DNA from: an uncultured Chthonomonas sp. | GTDB taxonomy: Bacteria; Armatimonadota; Chthonomonadetes; Chthonomonadales; Chthonomonadaceae | NCBI GenBank assembly: GCA_903859705.1 | Contig: CAIONQ010000163.1 | Location: 186,001-250,000 of the forward strand | Reading direction: 5' to 3' | Length of the DNA: 64,000 nucleotides | Shown here: positions 46,647 through 63,199 of the stretch, one piece after another | How the letters are laid out: each line of letters starts with the position of its first letter | Numbering within the stretch: the first letter of the stretch is position 1 | Translations under genes and position numbers: made by a program | Notes under the pieces: generated by a model | Seen by the model: the letters and a program-made list of their open reading frames with translations, nothing else | What the model was told of the DNA's origin: nothing | Database searches by the model: none

Positions 46647-48137
46647 CTACCTGCCGCTGCCTGTGGCAAACGACTTCTGAAGTTGTGCTATCTCTTCGGG
46701 CTGCAGGGCGCGGTGGCTGCCAATCTTAATCTGCTGCTTTATGCCCGTTTCGGTCTCTATAGCTTCTACGCGCAAAATGCCGTTGGCGTCTACATCGAAG
46801 CTTACTTCAATCTTCGGAACCCCTTTCGGGGCTCTCGGCACGCCAATTAGTGAGAAGGTGCCAATAAGCGTGTTGCCGGTGGCACTCTTAGATTCTCCCT
46901 GATAAACGCGGATATTTACTACCGTTTGCCCATCTAAAGAGGTAGTAAAAATCTGTTTGTTCTGGGCAGGCACCGTGGTGTTCTTCTCTATGATAGAGGC
47001 AACCACGCCGCCAATGGTTTCTATTCCCAGCGTAAACGGCGTTACATCCAGCAGCAGTACGCCCTGAACCTCTGCGTTGAGTACGCCTGCCTGGAGGGCC
47101 GCCCCACGCGCCACCGATTCATCGGGATCTACGCCCTTAACTGGCTCTTTGCCGAGAACGCGTTTCACCAGATCTTGCACTGCCGGCATGCGTGTTGAAC
47201 CGCCTACCAGAATAATACTGTCTATCTGCGCCGGGGTTAGCTTCGCATCTCGCAGAGCTGTAAGTGTAGGGGGAACCAGCCTGTCCAGCAGATCTGCGCA
47301 AAGCAGCTCCATTCTGGATCGCGCCAAATCAATATCCATATGCAGCGGCCCTTCTTCGCCAGAAGTTAAAAAGGGCAGGTTAATATTGGTAGAGATGAGG
47401 CTGCTTAGCTCAACCTTGGCCTTCTCGGCGGCCTCTTTAAGGCGCTGCAGTGCCATACGGTCTCGAGTTAAATCGATGTTGTGATCGGCCTGAAAGCGCT
47501 CGGCCATCCAGGCTACAATGCGTGCGTCCCAGTCATCTCCGCCAAGGTTCATGTCACCACTGGTGGCCAGTACTTCAAATATTCCATCGGTAATATGCAG
47601 GATGGAAACATCAAAAGTGCCGCCTCCCAGGTCCCACACAAGCAGCGTTTGATCCTGAGTTGCTGTTATTCCATACGCAAGCGCAGCAGCGGTGGGTTCA
47701 TTTATGATCCGCACAACTTCAAGGCCAGCTATGGTGCCGGCATCTTTTGTTGCCTGCCGTTGAGAATCCGTAAAGTAGGCGGGCACCGTAATAACGGCGC
47801 GGGTCACCGGTTCACCAAGGTAAGCCTCGGCATCTGCTTTGAGCTTTTGCAGAATACAGGCAGATACCGCCTGTGGCCGCATCTGTTCTCCGGCAAGGCT
47901 TACAAACTCAGAAACCCCCATATGGCGTTTTACGCTACTGAGGGTTCTATCCGGGGCCGCTACAGCCTGGCGTTTTGCCATGCTGCCAACCAGGCGTTCG
48001 CCGGCACGAGTTATGCCCACCACCGATGGGCAAAGGCGTGCGCCTTCGGCCAGAGTGATGACAGTTGGCTCCTGTCCCTCAACCACCGCAACAACGGAGT
48101 TTGTGGTCCCGAGGTCAATTCCAACAATCTTCGGCAT
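46647..48137 (-). CDS. dnaK: DnaK-type Hsp70 chaperone lacking the C-terminal lid
   Basis: The 496-residue protein has the complete nucleotide-binding domain: [37 protein letters not shown] and [12 protein letters not shown]. The beta substrate-binding domain ends near [25 protein letters not shown]. Typical DnaK is 600-640 residues; the alpha-helical lid (about 110 residues) is missing. No continuing frame lies between its stop and dnaJ, so it is not a simple frameshift. Lid-less Hsp70s bind substrates more weakly and release them faster in general. It is cotranscribed with rpoZ, dnaJ, prmA and rsmE. Confidence 0.95.
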
Positions 48138-50751: not shown

Positions 50752-51342
50752 TTGTTGCGCCGTGTGCCGATTTATGCTGTTGCAGGTGCTGCACTTGCGG
50801 CCCTGCTAACACCACAGCACACAATGGCGCAAGTGTTACGCCCGGATGGCTGCGAACTGTTTTCCCCCATCCCCGGCACCGCAGGCTATCAGGCTCCCGA
50901 TCCCAGTTTCAGCGTTTGCGATTCCCTTTCAGAGTTGGCCAACCACTGGCTGGAAGTTACCGATGATCTGCCAGATCCTACTCTGCCACGCCTTACAGAT
51001 TTCCCAAAACGCATGCCAGATGATAGCGATGCCATACTACGAGGTGGTCGGTGGCGCTCAGATCTGGAACAATCTATGACTGCCGATTACTTGAAGGCAA
51101 CAAATGGCAGCACAAATGTTGCCGCCAGGTTGCCCGCATCTATCGCTGAACGCACTTCCCTGATAACTTTTTCTGGCCTGCTACCAATGCCAGCGCCCGG
51201 AACAGAGCTATTCGCTGCCTCTCCTCCAGAACTTCCACTGGCGCCTCTCGCCTCCCCAGAACCCGGATCTGCCGCCATCGCCGCCTCCTTTGCTGCCGCC
51301 TGTTGGATGCTCTTGCGCCGCCGCCGGCCCATGCGTCCTTAG
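50752..51342 (+). CDS. PEP-CTERM-anchored exported protein
   Basis: The 196-residue product has a TTG start, a signal peptide (about 1-26, ending TMAQ), a proline-rich body with two Cys, and a C-terminal PEP-CTERM tail: SPEPGSAAI, a hydrophobic stretch and RRRR near the end. It should be exported and sorted by an exosortase not encoded here. It shares no obvious body similarity with the other PEP-CTERM protein in the window. The function is unknown. Confidence 0.8.
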   Translation: MLRRVPIYAVAGAALAALLTPQHTMAQVLRPDGCELFSPIPGTAGYQAPDPSFSVCDSLSELANHWLEVTDDLPDPTLPRLTDFPKRMPDDSDAILRGGRWRSDLEQSMTADYLKATNGSTNVAARLPASIAERTSLITFSGLLPMPAPGTELFAASPPELPLAPLASPEPGSAAIAASFAAACWMLLRRRRPMRP

Positions 51343-51453: not shown

Positions 51454-53847
51454 TTAATGCGCTTCCGGCACCGGGCCTTTAAATCGGTTTAGTCTCCAAA
51501 TTTTCAAATTCATATCCAGCCCAACACTTCCCAGTAACTTCGAATCTGCCGAAAAAACCAGGCCAGTAATCCGCTGAGAATGGCCCGGAAGCGTGGTATA
51601 TGGCAACGTGCTGCCTACGGTATACATCCCAATGTGCGCAAACTCCGCCTGGTCTCCCATCGGGTCATAGCCAACGGCCAGCAGCTTTCCATCTCTCGAA
51701 AAGCAGATGGCGGTTACTCTCGATGCATCTGCCTCAATGCACAGGCCCGGCTCGCCAGTTAAGGCATTTCGAAACTGTACAGCTCTGTTTGCACCGCCAG
51801 TAACCACCTCGCTGCCATTCGGAGCAAAGGCCAGGGCGGTTAATGCGTTGCCGTGGCCCTCTTTCTCCCATAATTTGTTACCGGTTGTTGCGTCTACCAT
51901 AGTAATTGCGCCAGATCGGATCCCACCCGGCGGAGAGCCCGTGCCTATGGCAAGCTGCTTGCTGTTCGGCGCAAACGCCAGCGCCAGAACCTCACCCTTC
52001 AGTCTCAATTTGTTCACCACATGTTGGTTAGCCGTTGAGATAACCAGCACGGTGCCATTGAGCATGCCCATGGCCGTATAGCGCGCATCCGGCGAAATCG
52101 CGCCACACACCTGCCCAGTGCCTGTAACTATCTGTGGAAAGTGGGAGCCCGTGTAGCGCGCCTTCAACAGCTCCATACGGCACTCTTCCATGGGGGAAGA
52201 AACCGCCGCTGCAAGCGTCTCATCATCGGCAGCGCTTTGCAGGCTGTACACACTGCCAGGATATTCGGCAAGCATGCCAATATACTTGCCCGTGTCCGGG
52301 TTCCAGGTTTGAACCCGCCCGCCAAGCAGGCGTTGATCTTCCGCACGTTCCGTTGCGGTTACAAACCTGCCTGCAGCAAATGCAATGGCACGCGGTGGGC
52401 TAACAAGCGGCACCGTCTTCACCGGCAGAGGGGATACCACATCTCTAAAATCGATGGCGCCATCTATCCCGGCCCACAGCGCCAGAATAAGTGCGCACGA
52501 TGCCACTATCTTTCCTGAGCCCTTCCAACGTGGAGCTACAAAATATGCCAGCAGTGAAACGGCAGCTGCGGCTATCGCGGCCCCTAGTGGTATTGGTGGG
52601 GAAGTTACTACAAGCGACCAACATGCCGCCAGCGCCAGGCCCGCTGCAGCCCAGCTCACCGGGTTAACAGGCGGCGGCGGCACCGGCGGTGGAAGCGAAA
52701 CCGAGCTCCTACCATAGTAAATGCCGGAAGAGGAGCTTACAGATGGCAGCGGAGTTTTGCGCCTTCGGGGTGGCGGATTGTGCTCGCCACGGGCTACAAC
52801 GTCCTTGGCCGGAAAAGGGTCTCGCCCACCCAGCATACCTCTGCGTTCACACCACGGGCAGGCCTCAAGGTGCCCGGAATACACATGCTGATCATTCTTT
52901 TCACACTCAACCAGCGCCTCTTCGGCCGCTTTCAGGGCTTCCATCCACATGGTTGCCGAAGGCCGTAATGCAGGGCGCGCATGCCCATCTTCAAAACACC
53001 GCAGCATCAGTGCCCCCACACCAGGGTGCATTATCCCTAATGGTGGAGATATCTTGAGTGGCCGGTAGGGAGTACGCTTTGCTCCATGCGGAAAGTGCCC
53101 CGCAGCAATCCTGTCGGCATAGGGTGGGGCATCTCCTGGCCCTGTATACTCGCCCGCAAAGGGGTGGGCGCCCTCCATTAGTATCTGGTAGATCAATACG
53201 GCCAGGGCAAAGTTATCGTGTGTTTGATTGCGGTCTATTTCACCAAACGAAATGCCGCTTAACTCCGGCGCAGTGAACTCTGGCTTGCCAACTGTGCACC
53301 GGTAAACACCCGTAACATCGCTGCCTGCAGTAGGCACCTGAAAAGAATCGGTATCTACCAGCGTTACTAGCGCCGAAGGGGCAACCAGAATATTGCTCTC
53401 ATTTAAATCGCCAATAACATACCCGCGCTCATGCAGGGCATTCACAGCAGCGCACAAATTGCGTGCGGTGCGTAACAGGTATTTATAAGAAAACAGGGGC
53501 GCGGTGCGCCGCCGGGAAGAGGGGTTGCAATACTCAAAAAGCGGATGCACGCCCGTTACACGGGGCATCAAATAGCCGGCAAAAGCCCGGCGCGCATCGG
53601 CGGTAACCAGCCTATCCAGGGGCCAGGCAATAGAAATGGCATGCTCTGCCGCCATCGGGTCCACCGGCGGGTTTTGTAGCATTGCCTGCAGTTTGCGCCA
53701 CTGAGTGGGTTCCGGATTGTGGTAAATCTTGGCGGCTAGCCCGGGTTCAGAAAGCACGGGCAGCACAACCGCTTCGCCGCCCGCGCCAATCTGGGCATCC
53801 ATAGCAAGCACTATCTCTTCGCCAGAGGTTACACGCGAGAGGCGCAA
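51454..53847 (-). CDS. Protein kinase-like/WD40 protein of TerY-associated type
   Basis: The 797-residue product has an N-terminal kinase domain (about 1-300). The HRD motif is altered to IGDLNESN, with the catalytic Asp and Asn kept, and DFG is replaced by DTDSFQ, a form seen in kinases linked to TerY vWA proteins. A short Cys/His cluster (CEKN...ACPWC) follows near 310-335. Two to four membrane helices lie near 390-460, and C-terminal WD40-like repeats (about 475-790) follow. Start TTG has AGGA 7 nt upstream. The vWA gene 106 bp upstream is its likely partner. Confidence 0.87.
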   Translation of the reverse strand: MRLSRVTSGEEIVLAMDAQIGAGGEAVVLPVLSEPGLAAKIYHNPEPTQWRKLQAMLQNPPVDPMAAEHAISIAWPLDRLVTADARRAFAGYLMPRVTGVHPLFEYCNPSSRRRTAPLFSYKYLLRTARNLCAAVNALHERGYVIGDLNESNILVAPSALVTLVDTDSFQVPTAGSDVTGVYRCTVGKPEFTAPELSGISFGEIDRNQTHDNFALAVLIYQILMEGAHPFAGEYTGPGDAPPYADRIAAGHFPHGAKRTPYRPLKISPPLGIMHPGVGALMLRCFEDGHARPALRPSATMWMEALKAAEEALVECEKNDQHVYSGHLEACPWCERRGMLGGRDPFPAKDVVARGEHNPPPRRRKTPLPSVSSSSGIYYGRSSVSLPPPVPPPPVNPVSWAAAGLALAACWSLVVTSPPIPLGAAIAAAAVSLLAYFVAPRWKGSGKIVASCALILALWAGIDGAIDFRDVVSPLPVKTVPLVSPPRAIAFAAGRFVTATERAEDQRLLGGRVQTWNPDTGKYIGMLAEYPGSVYSLQSAADDETLAAAVSSPMEECRMELLKARYTGSHFPQIVTGTGQVCGAISPDARYTAMGMLNGTVLVISTANQHVVNKLRLKGEVLALAFAPNSKQLAIGTGSPPGGIRSGAITMVDATTGNKLWEKEGHGNALTALAFAPNGSEVVTGGANRAVQFRNALTGEPGLCIEADASRVTAICFSRDGKLLAVGYDPMGDQAEFAHIGMYTVGSTLPYTTLPGHSQRITGLVFSADSKLLGSVGLDMNLKIWRLNRFKGPVPEAH

Positions 53848-53953
53848 CTGATTATCCTGCTCTCTGCTGGCATAGAATTAGTGAGTGATACGTAAGCGTT
53901 TGCCGATAGGTGGGGCCTTCAAACGCGGCCCCCGGTGGTATGCACAAAATACC

Positions 53954-54622
53954 CTATACTGCTCCCCAGCCGGGCGGCGGCAGTGCCACCTGATCATCCA
54001 CGCGGGATTGGGAAACGCGCTGCATACTGGCTGAAAGCCAAACAAACATCTCAACAAAGTTTAGGCCAATCAGGCGAACAGGGGCCCTCACAGAAATTTT
54101 AGATAGCCGGTCCATATCTGCGCCCTCAACGCCAACGGCAAAGAAGGCAACGCGGCGCGCAGTTTCGTCCTCCGCAATGCGGCGGGCCGCTTCCTCCACC
54201 ACGGTATCCGCTTCGCCCTGCGGGGCCCCATCGGTAATCAGGAATATCCATGGCCGATAGTACATAACACCATTTGCCCGGTACTGAGCTTTGCGGGCGT
54301 TTAGCAGATCCAGCGCACGGTTAATTGCGCCGCCCATATGCGTTAAGCCCTGTGCCTGCAGTTGCGGAGGCGTGAACTGATCCACCGTTACAAAGTCCTG
54401 CTCAACCTTCACCTCATTGTTAAACGTAACAATCGCCACCTCAACCCGGCGGGCAGCCAGTGCATCTTTGCTTAACTCCTGCTGAAAAGCATTCAGGCCA
54501 GCCTGCAGGGCATCCAGCGGCGCACCACGCATAGAACCAGAAATGTCCAGCAGCAAAACGCACGGGCATCGAGGATCGGGATTATCCGCAAACTCAACAA
54601 GATCTTCAAGCGCAGTAGACAA
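53954..54622 (-). CDS. TerY-like von Willebrand A domain protein
   Basis: The 222-residue protein is essentially one vWA domain with an intact metal-ion-dependent adhesion site: LLDISGSM (DxSxS), a Thr in GLTHMGG and ITDGAPQGE. The length and layout match TerY proteins of the tellurite-resistance/stress systems, often encoded with a PP2C phosphatase and a kinase. Here the kinase gene is adjacent, but the PP2C member is absent and the only PP2C gene is at 1723-2700. Start is TTG with AAGGAG 6 nt upstream. Confidence 0.9.
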   Translation of the reverse strand: MSTALEDLVEFADNPDPRCPCVLLLDISGSMRGAPLDALQAGLNAFQQELSKDALAARRVEVAIVTFNNEVKVEQDFVTVDQFTPPQLQAQGLTHMGGAINRALDLLNARKAQYRANGVMYYRPWIFLITDGAPQGEADTVVEEAARRIAEDETARRVAFFAVGVEGADMDRLSKISVRAPVRLIGLNFVEMFVWLSASMQRVSQSRVDDQVALPPPGWGAV

Positions 54623-54880: not shown

Positions 54881-55927
54881 TCACACAAATACAAACGGCC
54901 TTTGCCTGTAATCTTTAATGCCATGCGCCTCAGCGAGTTCGCGCGACCGGCCGGTATCTGCTACGCTGGCATAGTACATCCCAAGGCTTTTGAGTGTTGG
55001 CAGCGTCATCAGCCAGGCGTGGTCGTCTGCGGTTCCAAACTTAATGCCGGAGAAGTACAGCTCTTCAAGCGCCGGGGCTGTGGCGAGAGCAGAGATGTCC
55101 TGCAGGCCTTTCATTGTATCCAGATAGACTCTACGCAGGGCCGTTAGTGCATTTAGATCGGGCAGTATCTTTACGTTAATCAGCGATTGCAAAAACAGGT
55201 ATTGCAGCCCGGTTAAGGTGGAGATCACGCTGATATCACTCAATCCCTTGATCTGCCACAGTTCGAGATACTTGATCTGAGACATGCCTGCGATAGGGGA
55301 GAGGTCAACTGTACCTCCGAGCTTGATATCGAGAGATGTCAGCCGAGGAAGGGACTGCAGAATACTCAGATCGATTTTAGAGAGCGACCGCAAGGTCAAG
55401 TCCTCGATGCAGGGTACCTGCGCAAGGACCTCTATCCCCTTTTGATGCCCTTCGATGTACAGTTTCTTCAGGTTCGTAAAGCGGGATATGGCGCTGACAT
55501 CTGGCTTTTTAGACTCCGTGGCTTCCAGCGAAAGAGTATGAATCTGCTCCGCCGGAAGCGTTTTCAGAAACTCAAACGAGTTGAGGCCATAGACTCCAAC
55601 TGTCAGCGCCTCTAATTGCGGCATGCTGCCGATGGCTTCGATGTTGGTAACCGTTTGCATGCAGTTAACCGAAAGCTGGCGCACATTCGACATCTGTTCC
55701 AGAAACAACAGATCACAGACTTCGTTGAAGAACCCGTAGGCACGCAGTTCAATATCGGGCCGGCGTGAAAACAACTCCGAGTTCAGCAATCCCCAGGCAG
55801 CCGGATCGGGCATTGACTTCGTCTGAACGACCTTAACGGCCGTATCGTCGACGATCGCCGGAATCTCGGCGGGATCAATGGTGTCGGTGAAGTCTACAAT
55901 GTGCGAGAAAGAACGGATGAAACCCAT
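54881..55927 (-). CDS. Leucine-rich-repeat-like protein
   Basis: The 348-residue product has about ten repeats of roughly 23 residues from about residue 75 onward, such as LTSLDIKLGGTVDLSPIAGM, IKYLELWQIKGLSDISVI and LQYLFLQSLINV, forming an LRR solenoid. The N-terminal 70 residues are not repeated. No signal peptide is seen. The gene stands alone between the vWA locus and a repeat-rich gap. LRR proteins bind other proteins; the ligand is unknown. Confidence 0.87.
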   Translation of the reverse strand: MGFIRSFSHIVDFTDTIDPAEIPAIVDDTAVKVVQTKSMPDPAAWGLLNSELFSRRPDIELRAYGFFNEVCDLLFLEQMSNVRQLSVNCMQTVTNIEAIGSMPQLEALTVGVYGLNSFEFLKTLPAEQIHTLSLEATESKKPDVSAISRFTNLKKLYIEGHQKGIEVLAQVPCIEDLTLRSLSKIDLSILQSLPRLTSLDIKLGGTVDLSPIAGMSQIKYLELWQIKGLSDISVISTLTGLQYLFLQSLINVKILPDLNALTALRRVYLDTMKGLQDISALATAPALEELYFSGIKFGTADDHAWLMTLPTLKSLGMYYASVADTGRSRELAEAHGIKDYRQRPFVFV

Positions 55928-57870: not shown

Positions 57871-60546
57871 TCATTTCGAAACCCTCACCGTGTAATGGGC
57901 CGCAAGTCCGGCCAGGGTCATGGTAGAGTTGATACCGTTGTCTGGAATTAATAAATAGTGCCAGGGCTTGCCACTATTCTGCTTCTCGTGGTCAGAAGCA
58001 TGTTTGCACCATCGAACGGCGGCATCGGCCTTTGCAAGCACGTCGGGATCGTTCATAAGATCACTGCGCTTGGGTTCGGCAAGGTACTTTGCTGTGTTCG
58101 TCTCAATAACGAAATCAGGCTCGTAACCGCCATCTCTAAGGTGAATGCGGAATTGGCCCACAGCGGGTTTGAACCACTTTAGCACTTCACAATCATTTTC
58201 CAGTACCACGCAGAGTCTGCGCTCAGTATCGCTCTGGAATTTCTGAACAGGATAGAGGCACTTCTGAAATCCAGTGAAGGACATGCCACGGATGAGCAGC
58301 CTATCATCAACAGGATTGCGGAAGTCTCGTGCAGTCTCCGTTTCCAGCGCATCGAAGCTCGTGGATTTGAGAGTAGTAAAGCCCCGAGTAACCTGCACAT
58401 CGTATTCAAACGCTGCAACAAACTGATGGGCCTGCATCTGAGCGTGAACCAGGTCTATTAGGGGTCGCTGGAAACTCAGGATCACCTTTAGAACCTGATC
58501 ATCATCTCCCAGATAAGACTGAAGCTTGCTTACTGCTTGTCCAGCAAGCTTGTAGAGCAGGTCGGAATGGCTGCCATAATCAACATCTGGTTTGTCGATC
58601 AGCCCCCTAACGATGTAGTTTTCCAACCGCTCCTCAACAGCAATTGAGACTCCACCAGCAAGTTTCCATCGCCGTCCTGATGATAGTCCTTCAATAAGCA
58701 GATCCTGGGAAATCGGCGGATAGTTGATGCTGGATGTATCGAGGTCAAAGTCGGAGAAACGGATTACGGTTTCACCTGTTGGCTGCAGCACTATCTTCGG
58801 GATGTCGATGGTAAGCTCAACAACCTTGTTGGTTACCTGTTCAACAATCTGTTCTACGCTTATTTCTGGTTTCGATACCGTTCCATCCAGTGTCTGCTGC
58901 GGGACAGCGCTGTATGCCATAGCGCGTTTAACTTCCGCAACCAGTTGCGCTCTGACCTCGGGTTTCTTAAGGTCCGCTGAACGCGGCAGATATTCAAACT
59001 GCTTCACTACTTCCACTGCAACCTGAGCGACCTGGCGCTCTTCCTCTGTCTTGAAGCAAAGTGCCTGCGGCGGCGGTTGTTGGCCTGGCACAGAAACCTG
59101 CGGTGTGAAGCCAGGCTGCACCGTCACGGCTACCTTCCGCTCGATAGGAATATCCCGCCCGATTACCACACCTTTTCTGATGATCGAGTTCGGATTTCTG
59201 GCAGCGTCAATTATCGCCTGGAATTTATCGTGAGCCACGATATGCAGCGTGTCCACAGCATCATTGCCAGTGCGTCTGCCGTAAGGCAATCGCAGACCAC
59301 GACCAAGCGTCTGTTCCGTAAGGATATCAGCTACAAACCGCCGCAGCGGAACAATGGTGTACAGGTTGGTGACATCCCAGCCTTCGCCAAGCTTATTAAC
59401 ATGGATCACGATCTCTGGTGCGCGATCATCGTGAGCCTGCTCAACCACAAGAAGGCGCTCAACGGCATCATCGCGTAGTTCGCCAGACTGGTTTGAATGC
59501 ACAGTAATTACTTTATTGGCGTAGCGGCCTTCAAAGAATGCGTCGCTCTTGATCAACGCTTCCAGAGTATCGGCGTGAGCGGTATCCTGGGCTACGACCA
59601 GCATAAAGGGCCTTACGAGAGGCTTGTCGTTCTGTAGGGCGTAGGTTTCAAGTTCGACCTTTGTGTGTTCGTGAACTCTTACTCCGTCTTCCAGCTTTAT
59701 TGTTTCAAGAGCAGCATCGTCGTAATCCTGAGCTCGGAAGTTCTCCTTGGTCACCACGGCAGGTTCTTTGACAAAGCCATCCGTCATTGCTTCGGACAGC
59801 GGATAGCTGTAGATCACATTCTTGAAATTGGCACCGTTCACGCCAGCGACCTTGGGAGTTGCTGTGAGTTCAAGGCCAAGTATTGGCTTCAGTTCATTGA
59901 TCGCTCGTACACCAGCGGATGCACGGTAACGATGGCTCTCGTCCATCAGCATTACGAGATCATCTAAGCTGGCGAGATATTCGAAGTAGCTGGTACCCAG
60001 GTATTCCGATAAGCGTTTGATCCTTGGTGACGCCCCGCCACGTACCTCGGTGTTGATCTTGGAGATGTTGAATACATTGATGTGCACACCCTCTTCCAGA
60101 TTGCGAAACAGGGACTTACCTTTGTCATAGTCGTCGCCAGTGATTACTTCGGGTGGGTTACTGGCAAATTCAGAGATGCCGTGGAACACATACTTCGGGT
60201 GGTTCGGCTGGCTAAACTCAGCAACGAGTTTGTTGTAGATCGTGAGGTTCGGAGCGAGTACAAAGAAGTGTCGCAGGTTATGGACCTGATACAGATAGGA
60301 AATGAACGCACCCATGAGTCTCGTCTTGCCAACGCCAGTAGCCAGGGCGAAGCACAGGGACGGGAAGTCGCGTTCAAAATCGCTTACAGATGTGAATTCA
60401 GATTTTATAATTTCAAGGCAGCTTGCTACATCCTGGTCCTTTGACAACGGCAGGATTTCACCCAGTCTGGCAAGGATTTCCAATGATCGGCGTTGGGGTG
60501 GACGAAGGCTCAGCCTTCCGCTAATGGAGTTGACGGCCTTGTTCAT
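57871..60546 (-). CDS. Type III restriction enzyme, Res subunit
   Basis: The 891-residue protein is a DEAD/DEAH-type translocase with a C-terminal nuclease. Walker A is ATGVGKT (about 71-77), Walker B LVMLMDESHRY (about 195-203), and a helicase motif VI-like QTLGRGLRLPYG lies near 405. The nuclease motif is PDFVIET...AEPK near 830-847, giving the PD-ExK arrangement. The type III Res/Mod complex cuts DNA with two inverted unmethylated sites. Its start overlaps the rhuM-like stop by 4 bp (ATGA). It is the last gene of the operon. Confidence 0.94.
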   Translation of the reverse strand: MNKAVNSISGRLSLRPPQRRSLEILARLGEILPLSKDQDVASCLEIIKSEFTSVSDFERDFPSLCFALATGVGKTRLMGAFISYLYQVHNLRHFFVLAPNLTIYNKLVAEFSQPNHPKYVFHGISEFASNPPEVITGDDYDKGKSLFRNLEEGVHINVFNISKINTEVRGGASPRIKRLSEYLGTSYFEYLASLDDLVMLMDESHRYRASAGVRAINELKPILGLELTATPKVAGVNGANFKNVIYSYPLSEAMTDGFVKEPAVVTKENFRAQDYDDAALETIKLEDGVRVHEHTKVELETYALQNDKPLVRPFMLVVAQDTAHADTLEALIKSDAFFEGRYANKVITVHSNQSGELRDDAVERLLVVEQAHDDRAPEIVIHVNKLGEGWDVTNLYTIVPLRRFVADILTEQTLGRGLRLPYGRRTGNDAVDTLHIVAHDKFQAIIDAARNPNSIIRKGVVIGRDIPIERKVAVTVQPGFTPQVSVPGQQPPPQALCFKTEEERQVAQVAVEVVKQFEYLPRSADLKKPEVRAQLVAEVKRAMAYSAVPQQTLDGTVSKPEISVEQIVEQVTNKVVELTIDIPKIVLQPTGETVIRFSDFDLDTSSINYPPISQDLLIEGLSSGRRWKLAGGVSIAVEERLENYIVRGLIDKPDVDYGSHSDLLYKLAGQAVSKLQSYLGDDDQVLKVILSFQRPLIDLVHAQMQAHQFVAAFEYDVQVTRGFTTLKSTSFDALETETARDFRNPVDDRLLIRGMSFTGFQKCLYPVQKFQSDTERRLCVVLENDCEVLKWFKPAVGQFRIHLRDGGYEPDFVIETNTAKYLAEPKRSDLMNDPDVLAKADAAVRWCKHASDHEKQNSGKPWHYLLIPDNGINSTMTLAGLAAHYTVRVSK

Positions 60547-61571
60547 CGCGTCTCCTCCTGGTCAGTATTGCTCCCCGTCGATCCGCCAGCGATTCGCTTC
60601 ACTTCACGCTCGAAATCACTTTCAAAGTTATTGTCCTGGATCACTCTGAATTGGGTAAACTGCTCCTCCGCCAAATGTCGTGCGACCTCCGCCGACACTT
60701 TCCCAGCGTTTGTCAGCACATCGTACTCATTGAACCTGAGGAACGAATCGAGCCTGGTTACCCAATCAGCCATGTTCATGGGTATTTGTCTGGCGGCCTG
60801 CCCTTCTGCATATAGCAGGTACTGTTCCACAATTCGATTGAGCTCCGTTACTTCCTGCTCGATCAAGTAGTTCTTCGCGGTGCCAATGTCGGTCTTAAGG
60901 ATCTTACCCTGCGGCGCGTTTTTCCAAGTAGTCAACCCCATGCTTGGCTTGGCAGCGTCGGCACGGTTTGCAATAATTTCAGCGGCAGTCATGCCGCTGA
61001 CAGCCCAGTGAAGTTTGTTCTGGACTGTAGCGAAGAAAGTCTTCGTGATTTCCGCCTTTGGGTCATAGTCGATACTGGCCTGCTCGTAAATGTCGGTGAT
61101 CTTCAGGTAAAAGCGCCGTTCGCTTGCCCGGATCTCCCGAATACGTTCGATGAGCTCATCGAAGTAGTCCTTACCAAAGCGCCTATTCAGCTTTAGTCGT
61201 TCATCATCGAGGATGAATCCCTTGATGATGAGCTCCTTAAGCGCGGCTGTGGCCCACATGCGAAATTGCGTTGCTTGCCTCGAGTTAACCCGATAGCCTA
61301 CGGCAATGATGGCATCCAAAGAGTAGTGGTCGAGTTCGCGCTCTACGCTTCTTCCGCCTTCATTTTGAACTATTCGGAATTTCCGAATAGTTGAGTTGCG
61401 ATCCAGTTCGCCCGTTTCGAATATGGCGCTCAGATGCTCATTCACGGTTGGCACGGTAACGCCGAAAAGCTCTGCAATTCGTCTTTGGACCAGCCAGAGT
61501 GTCTCGTTTTCGAACTGAACTTCGACCTTCGTGGCGCCATCGGGCGATGTATATAGCAGGATCTGGTTCAT
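60543..61571 (-). CDS. rhuM: RhuM-family protein inside type III restriction operon
   Basis: The 342-residue protein matches the virulence-associated RhuM family: WLVQRRIAELFGV, STIRKFRIVQNEG, ELDHYSLDAIIAVGYRVNS, TQFRMWAT and IIKGFILDDERLK. The N-terminal half looks like a DNA-binding phage antirepressor-type domain. RhuM genes are often found within restriction or mobile loci; the molecular role is unknown. It overlaps both mod and res by 4 bp, so all three are translationally coupled and this is not a passing insertion. Confidence 0.93.
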   Translation of the reverse strand: MNQILLYTSPDGATKVEVQFENETLWLVQRRIAELFGVTVPTVNEHLSAIFETGELDRNSTIRKFRIVQNEGGRSVERELDHYSLDAIIAVGYRVNSRQATQFRMWATAALKELIIKGFILDDERLKLNRRFGKDYFDELIERIREIRASERRFYLKITDIYEQASIDYDPKAEITKTFFATVQNKLHWAVSGMTAAEIIANRADAAKPSMGLTTWKNAPQGKILKTDIGTAKNYLIEQEVTELNRIVEQYLLYAEGQAARQIPMNMADWVTRLDSFLRFNEYDVLTNAGKVSAEVARHLAEEQFTQFRVIQDNNFESDFEREVKRIAGGSTGSNTDQEETR

Positions 61572-63199
61572 ATGTCCAGCCTCCCCTGCGGCGATCCTGC
61601 TATGCTCGGTGATTGATTCCGCACTGGAAGATTCTCAACCTGCAGACTGTAGTCGTCATGACCGAATTCACATCGGGTTAGGATTGCATTTGGTATCTTT
61701 GTAAGTGTTAGGTTTTGGAAGCTATCAGGTTTGCCGTTCCACGCGGAACAGCAGACCAAGAGTGTTCGATTGTCGCCAACCTCTTCGCTCAAATGAGCAA
61801 GAGCTTCATGGGTAAGTGTCTGCGCCGTTACAAAGATGAAATCTGATTCAGTTGAGTGGCCGTGCATCCAATAGGCTTCATCACTTGGAGCATACTCAAA
61901 ACCCATATGCTTACACATCGCTTCTGCCAGCATCTCCGCATTGTAGGCGTCGTTTACTACCCATTGGCGATATTTATCTTGCTTCAACAGCGAAGGCGCA
62001 AGCCTGTAGTATCGGAATCCACCACCGCCATTCCAGTCGACGCTTTTGCTAATTCCACCATCGTCAGATCCGTCAATCACCTTTTTGAGCCTCGGAATGA
62101 TGTGGGTGTGGCAATGCTGACCTAGCTCAACCATGATCCAGCGGCGGCGCATCTTATGAGCGACCGCGCCTGTAGTGCCTGAGCCTGCAAAGGAATCAAG
62201 GACTAGATCACCTTTAACAGTTGCCAGTTCCAGAACACGTTTGATGAGCCTCTCTGGTTTTGGTGTATCGAATGGGCTTTCGGGGTTTGCTGCTTTGACT
62301 TCCTCTCTTGCTTCGTGATTGTGACCCACCTCGGTATATAACCAAATTGTTGGTGAGGGTGGTCCTTCTTGACCGATCTCACACAAAAACGTCTTCCTTG
62401 AAGGCGTCGCTTTTCCGTCCGTCCCAAACCAAATCTCATTATTGTCGTCCATCTCATTGAGTTTGTGGGCAGGAAATCGAGGAGACGATCCTCTAGGTGC
62501 GGACCAGACAACGCCATTTTTGAACGTAAAAGTGAATGCCTGCTCCTTCTCTGATCCAATTCTCTTCGCATATAACGGTGTCGATTTCCAGGGGCCTTTG
62601 GGATGATTGTCAGGATTGCTGTATCTTGCGTCCATTTCACTGCTTCGTCCAAGTCGATTGGGTCGCCAAGTTGGCTTGTTCTTTGCATAAACCAGAATGT
62701 GGTCGTGATTTTCGGAGAGCCACTTTGCGTCATTTGCCAGTGTGTACTTTTTCTGCCAGATCGCATTGGCGACAAAATTTGTCCGACCGAATATCTCATC
62801 ACAAAGAACCTTCAAGTAATGAGCTTCGGTGTCGTCAATTGTGATCCATATCGAACCATCTTCGGCCAGGAGTCTGTAGGAGATTTCCAATCGGTCTCGC
62901 ATCATACCTAACCAGATTGAGTGCTCAATACCATCATCATAATGTTCAAATGCTGATCCCGTATTATATGGTGGGTCTATAAAGATGCATTTTACTTTGC
63001 CAGCAAACTCCTGCTCCAACGCCTTAAGAGCAAGAAGGTTGTCCCCAAATATCAACCGATTATCAAAAATGTCAGCCTCAGTCACTCGTTCGGCAGCGTG
63101 ATACGACAGTGCAGGGTCTTCCAGCAGTATCCTCGGTTCTAATCGAGGGCGCAGCTCTTTACCGATCCAGGTTAGTTCGAGTCTGTTGGGGGTTGGCAT
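61568..63199 (-). CDS. Type III DNA methyltransferase, Mod subunit
   Basis: The 543-residue protein is a beta-class adenine methyltransferase: motif IV DPPYNTGSAF (about residue 75) precedes motif I DSFAGSGTTG (about 338-347). That is the order of type III Mod. The N-terminal part and the region between the motifs (about 120-300) should hold DNA recognition. Mod alone methylates its site and, with Res, specifies restriction. It begins 7 bp after the PIN-like toxin gene. The region is visibly more A/T-rich than the left 55 kb, consistent with transfer. Confidence 0.95.
   Translation of the reverse strand: MPTPNRLELTWIGKELRPRLEPRILLEDPALSYHAAERVTEADIFDNRLIFGDNLLALKALEQEFAGKVKCIFIDPPYNTGSAFEHYDDGIEHSIWLGMMRDRLEISYRLLAEDGSIWITIDDTEAHYLKVLCDEIFGRTNFVANAIWQKKYTLANDAKWLSENHDHILVYAKNKPTWRPNRLGRSSEMDARYSNPDNHPKGPWKSTPLYAKRIGSEKEQAFTFTFKNGVVWSAPRGSSPRFPAHKLNEMDDNNEIWFGTDGKATPSRKTFLCEIGQEGPPSPTIWLYTEVGHNHEAREEVKAANPESPFDTPKPERLIKRVLELATVKGDLVLDSFAGSGTTGAVAHKMRRRWIMVELGQHCHTHIIPRLKKVIDGSDDGGISKSVDWNGGGGFRYYRLAPSLLKQDKYRQWVVNDAYNAEMLAEAMCKHMGFEYAPSDEAYWMHGHSTESDFIFVTAQTLTHEALAHLSEEVGDNRTLLVCCSAWNGKPDSFQNLTLTKIPNAILTRCEFGHDDYSLQVENLPVRNQSPSIAGSPQGRLDI

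Follow-up and report, generated by a model that had tools for sequence, protein, structure and literature searches.

The window, a stretch of 64,000 nucleotides from an uncultured Chthonomonas sp., carries two neighboring genes of interest on its minus strand. Positions 53954-54622 encode a TerY/YegL-like vWA protein (222 aa, TTG start), and positions 51454-53847 encode a membrane Ser/Thr kinase with a C-terminal WD40 propeller (797 aa, TTG start). Both open reading frames lie where the first-pass annotation had placed them; the vWA, kinase, and WD40 domains it proposed were confirmed with Pfam, and the membrane helices were predicted again. The same annotation had likened the pair to TerY-kinase-PP2C triads, a likeness that is upheld by the vWA protein, which, across 96% of its length, is 54% identical to an E. 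coli protein bearing the annotation YegL and encoded beside PphC. The order of the genes in this E. coli record is YegL, PphC, an IS1 element, YegI, and YegD. Furthermore, the vWA protein matches PF00092 (1.5e-14), and its MIDAS is intact, with D26, S28, S30, T94, and D131 being invariant in 10 aligned sequences. A search of solved structures with the vWA sequence gave no match, nor did PADLOC.

The vWA and kinase genes are separated by a gap of only 106 bp (53848-53953, minus strand), which contains the motif GGGGCC-N9-GGCCCC and corresponds to the position of the PP2C gene in relatives. The open reading frames and domain matches at the locus revealed no PP2C gene between or adjoining the two genes, in agreement with the first-pass annotation.

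A wider operon was considered and rejected, as the neighbors of the pair are mostly not common to the loci of relatives. The shared ones are a downstream ADH gene with rpoZ, and dnaK/dnaJ, each found at one other locus, and the most widespread family of non-triad neighbors occurs at five loci, that of the window not being among them. An LRR gene (54881-55927, minus strand) is located 258 bp upstream of the vWA gene; a congener has a different gene at this place. The Hsp70 gene (46647-48137, minus strand) encodes 496 aa, which is short for DnaK, and adjoins dnaJ; at another locus, L049, a dnaK-dnaJ pair directly adjoins the triad. An open reading frame of 196 aa on the plus strand (50752-51342) has no Pfam or NCBIfam match and ends in a PEP-CTERM-like tail. 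The region 57871-63199 comprises genes for a Type III restriction enzyme and a methyltransferase with a PDC-S05 candidate defense gene between them (PADLOC). At three loci of a single genus, L045 (9216-12476), L046, and L121, MreB and MreC genes are found upstream of the triad; the gene that separates them from the vWA gene (168 aa) has no Pfam match and might, as a guess, encode MreD. A role in the envelope was considered on account of these neighbors, which were seen in this one genus only.

Catalytic part, predicted membrane helices, and modeled propeller of the kinase

The first 336 residues of the kinase (52840-53847, minus strand) comprise the catalytic domain and a Cys/His module, as supported by conserved residues and by 39% identity to the kinase of another, complete vWA-PP2C-kinase triad, which this genome carries on contig C14; they are predicted to be cytoplasmic. 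The PF00069 match (2e-7, 31.1 bits) falls slightly below the cut-off of 31.7 bits. All 15 aligned sequences retain the catalytic residues K40, D147, N152, and D165, and an inactive kinase, which the first-pass annotation had named as a possible objection, is therefore unlikely as judged from the alignment. The kinase also matches Escherichia plasmid records. The residues C315, H321, C330, and C333 (52849-52905, minus strand) occupy the place of the TerY-P zinc ribbon; all four are invariant in two alignments of 15 sequences each and form a candidate zinc site. By its sequence the enzyme is a Ser/Thr kinase of the YegI/TerY-P kind. PADLOC returned weak matches for it, none of them carrying the name TerY.

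Three transmembrane helices are predicted within residues 396-471 (52435-52662, minus strand) from hydropathy, a structural model, and loop charges. They are followed by a seven-bladed WD40 propeller, residues 476-785 (51493-52422, minus strand), which is predicted to be extracytoplasmic and was identified by the model, by Foldseek, and by Pfam (3.1e-18). The AlphaFold model has a mean pLDDT of 81 and a pTM of 0.63. It contains a kinase domain, helices at 396-414, 420-441, and 445-471, the first with low confidence, and 28 strands between residues 476 and 785, which make up seven four-stranded blades. The linker 362-401 and the stretch between helices 1 and 2 are modeled with a confidence below 50. 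Top Foldseek matches of the model are WD40 propellers, including a Thermomonospora protein named PkwA.

In 14 of 15 sequences, positive residues equal or outnumber negative ones in the linker preceding the helices. The first loop, connecting helices 1 and 2, has no charge in 14 of 15, and the second, connecting helices 2 and 3, carries K/R in 13 of 15. A topology with three crossings, the kinase inside and the propeller outside, fits these loop charges. It remains a prediction, since a hydropathy scan alone finds three segments in the window kinase, whereas most relatives show only two membrane segments that exceed the threshold. This hydropathy result would suit an alternative arrangement in which two helices leave the propeller in the cytoplasm and the protein serves as a scaffold instead of a sensor. 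However, the three helices of the model, as well as the uncharged turn within the hydrophobic stretch followed by a positive loop, fit the kinase-in, propeller-out orientation, and we grant the cytoplasmic propeller a minor, though real, chance of being correct. Such an arrangement would alter the sensor part alone and could coexist with the partnership proposed below.

C-terminal tails were scanned for 71 kinases, drawn from 80 loci of which nine were left out as incomplete or short. WD40 repeats were found in 14 tails and TPR families in 28-29. This variation between WD40, TPR, and other domains suggests a conserved kinase core with exchangeable sensors.

Gene order in relatives

The distribution of the three genes was surveyed in 61 genomes, 17 of them from the own family and most of them draft metagenome assemblies. 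Kinases with at least 47% identity to the domain in the window were counted as WD40-type. Such a kinase was present in 12 of the 17 family genomes, and the arrangement of the genes differed among these 12. The order vWA-PP2C-kinase was contiguous in six (G002, G003, G005, G009, G012, and G016), so that relatives do carry a PP2C gene between the two others, an arrangement that the first-pass annotation had named as speaking against its reading. The vWA and kinase genes lie together with the PP2C gene elsewhere in this genome (G000) and in the congener (G001). In one genome (G015), whose PP2C gene is broken into two pieces at contig ends, vWA and PP2C genes are together and the kinase gene is elsewhere. 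The remaining three genomes (G007, G008, and G011) have all of the genes apart; the PP2C of G008 is the weakest match, with 38% identity and a stop within the match. Sister genome G016 of G015 (kinase tree, 100/99) has the contiguous order; hence, the split in G015 is separate from that in the genus of the window.

Among the other family genomes, G014 (74% complete) has vWA and PP2C genes at a contig end, its only kinase being of another kind and on a different contig, G006 contains a triad of the C14 type only, and G004, G010, and G013 yielded none of the triad genes in this survey. Outside the family the three genes are contiguous in G046 and in G022, the kinase tail of the latter not being WD40. 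Pairwise identities across 12 genomes correlate with r = 0.91 for vWA and kinase and, less strongly, with r = 0.62 for PP2C and kinase, a difference that counts against the partnership proposed below; relatedness alone could suffice for such values.

A wider sample consisted of the best 80 of 378 kinase relatives in GTDB genomes, some of them on the same contigs as in the survey. The fetched stretch contained a TerY-type PP2C at 62 of these best 80 loci. A vWA gene was present at 51 of them, and 50 of these 51 had the PP2C gene as well. Where a vWA gene and at least 4 kb upstream were available, PP2C was found at 46 of 47 loci, the exception, L129, being the congener's contig. The remaining loci devoid of PP2C also had no vWA gene in the stretch, and several of them are short contigs. 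Additionally, a search of the phylum detected the vWA protein at E ≤ 1e-60 in 25 of 291 genomes, fifteen of which belong to the 61 surveyed. All 25 also gave matches to a TerY-type PP2C and to a kinase, the kinase in G014 being the one of another kind on another contig; in all ten additional genomes, kinase and PP2C genes lie near the vWA gene on the same contig.

The pair might also have no phosphatase at all and constitute a one-way or remnant switch that has been decaying since the PP2C gene was lost. The locus is indeed without PP2C in both genomes of the genus, but the catalytic and MIDAS residues are kept, and a TerY-type PP2C together with the vWA protein occurs in 12 of 12 family genomes with a WD40-type kinase, whatever the gene order. 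We regard such a switch as quite improbable. The absence of PP2C from the locus is best explained by displacement rather than loss.

Candidate phosphatases in this genome and its congener

The PP2C gene at 1723-2700, about 49 kb from the pair, had been described as the only one. This holds within the window; the whole genome, in contrast, contains six PF13672 matches, five of them above the cut-off, including an orphan TerY-type PP2C on contig C133, which is unlinked to the vWA-kinase pair, and the PP2C of the complete second triad on C14 (L007 7885-11397). A transposase-like open reading frame is located immediately upstream of the C14 triad.

Cross-talk between the pair and the PP2C encoded at 1723-2700 in its FHA/kinase operon had been suggested. 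This protein is a PP2C by Pfam (PF00481, 9.8e-14) and is encoded on the same contig as the pair. However, its gene adjoins kinase and FHA genes of its own, and in a PP2C tree it falls together with two of the genome's ordinary PP2Cs, apart from all TerY-type enzymes (100/100). Being of the ordinary type, with a triad-type PP2C present elsewhere in the genome, it lends no support to cross-talk, which we consider highly improbable. Resolution of the tree is otherwise poor, with stars on 5 of its 21 inner branches and mostly weak inner branches on the triad side. It places the C133 PP2C among the triad-type enzymes, away from that of the window, but recovers no sister relationship between the C133 protein and the PP2C of the congener. 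The C133 protein shares 38-53% identity with the matches obtained for it in genomes with a WD40-type vWA/kinase, and PP2C motifs are intact.

The pair could instead use the PP2C of the C14 triad, which is of the TerY type and encoded in the same genome. However, the tree groups this enzyme (99/97) with that of G006, a genome with a C14-type kinase, and it shares only 33% identity with the C133 protein; moreover, the sole TerY-type PP2C found in the congener is that on contig C323. Sharing of the C14 phosphatase thus appears improbable.

In the congener, the C323 PP2C gene is followed by a second kinase gene (L056 6808-9045), whose 474-aa product lacks a propeller. An FAD-oxidase gene (84% identity) lies upstream of both the C133 and the C323 PP2C genes. 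A counterpart of the second kinase is missing from this genome, where, apart from the kinases of the window and of C14, the kinase search yielded only one weak match. The common FAD-oxidase neighbor and the missing second kinase indicate that separation of the PP2C gene from the vWA-kinase locus probably predates the divergence of the two congeners, as far as can be judged from gene content; in this genome the PP2C gene persists with no kinase gene beside it. Since the congener's PP2C gene adjoins that of the second kinase, the C133 PP2C may derive from the former partner of this lost kinase, which counts against the partnership proposed below.

Relation to known systems and proposed function

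TerY-P triads are reportedly owed to Anantharaman 2012 and Gao 2020. The E. coli proteins YegL, PphC (YegK), and YegI are of the same three types as those considered here, encoded in the order yegL-pphC-yegI; YegI of E. coli is not known to carry a WD40 propeller. In E. coli the PP2C gene adjoins the vWA gene, whereas in the window's genome it is unlinked. YegI is described as a membrane kinase that autophosphorylates and is dephosphorylated by PphC (PMC13232886). The TerY-P triad is described as a TerY-like vWA protein, a PP2C-like enzyme, and an STK with a C-terminal zinc ribbon (PMC11090510), and activity of such triads against phages is reported (PMC7699616, PMC10889362). As compared to TerY-P, the window kinase adds C-terminal membrane helices and a WD40 propeller, and the pair has no adjoining PP2C, which would be provided in trans. 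Cyanobacterial triads with a WD40 kinase are exemplified by plasmid A of Trichormus variabilis, where genes for a VWA protein, a PP2C, and a 'WD-40 repeat-containing serine/threonine protein kinase' are contiguous in that order; the cyanobacterial kinase shows 38.8% identity over window residues 24-335. PknD of M. tuberculosis is a Ser/Thr kinase with an extracellular beta-propeller sensor (PMC2877116), to which we liken the window kinase by description. The PknD propeller is six-bladed as compared to seven blades modeled here; unlike PknD, the window kinase is of the YegI kind with vWA and PP2C partners, and its extracytoplasmic propeller is predicted from helices and loop charges.

With PP2C absent from the locus, clustered in relatives, and present elsewhere in the genome, the pair is a split relative and not a full triad at this locus. 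We consider it fairly likely that it represents a split triad of the TerY-P/YegL-PphC-YegI type, in which a membrane receptor kinase with a WD40 sensor is reset in trans by the C133 PP2C. We infer its topology, the trans partnership, the direction of phosphotransfer, the ligand, and the output as follows. The kinase would be a membrane receptor with a cytoplasmic catalytic domain and three helices across the membrane, and its seven-bladed propeller would face the periplasm as a sensor. Upon binding of an envelope ligand or partner, the kinase would phosphorylate itself and/or the vWA protein, whose metal-dependent binding face may relay or scaffold the signal. The TerY-type PP2C from C133 would then reset the switch.

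It seems possible, though this is tentative, that in this one family the genes scatter repeatedly, as a pair plus one or all three apart, yet always stay in the same genome, with a PP2C freed from its operon serving as common reset for more than one kinase and the WD40 propeller being a periplasmic sensor that can be exchanged; the congener, with one vWA protein, one PP2C, and two kinases, would be an example. The vWA-PP2C-kinase triad itself is already known, and the split form is a variant of the TerY-P/YegL-PphC-YegI kind. Gene order, rather than biochemistry, probably accounts for the phosphatase that appears to be missing. Genomes in which the genes are contiguous, half-split, or fully split provide a clean comparative set for the question of whether YegL/PphC/YegI-type proteins work as one unit.
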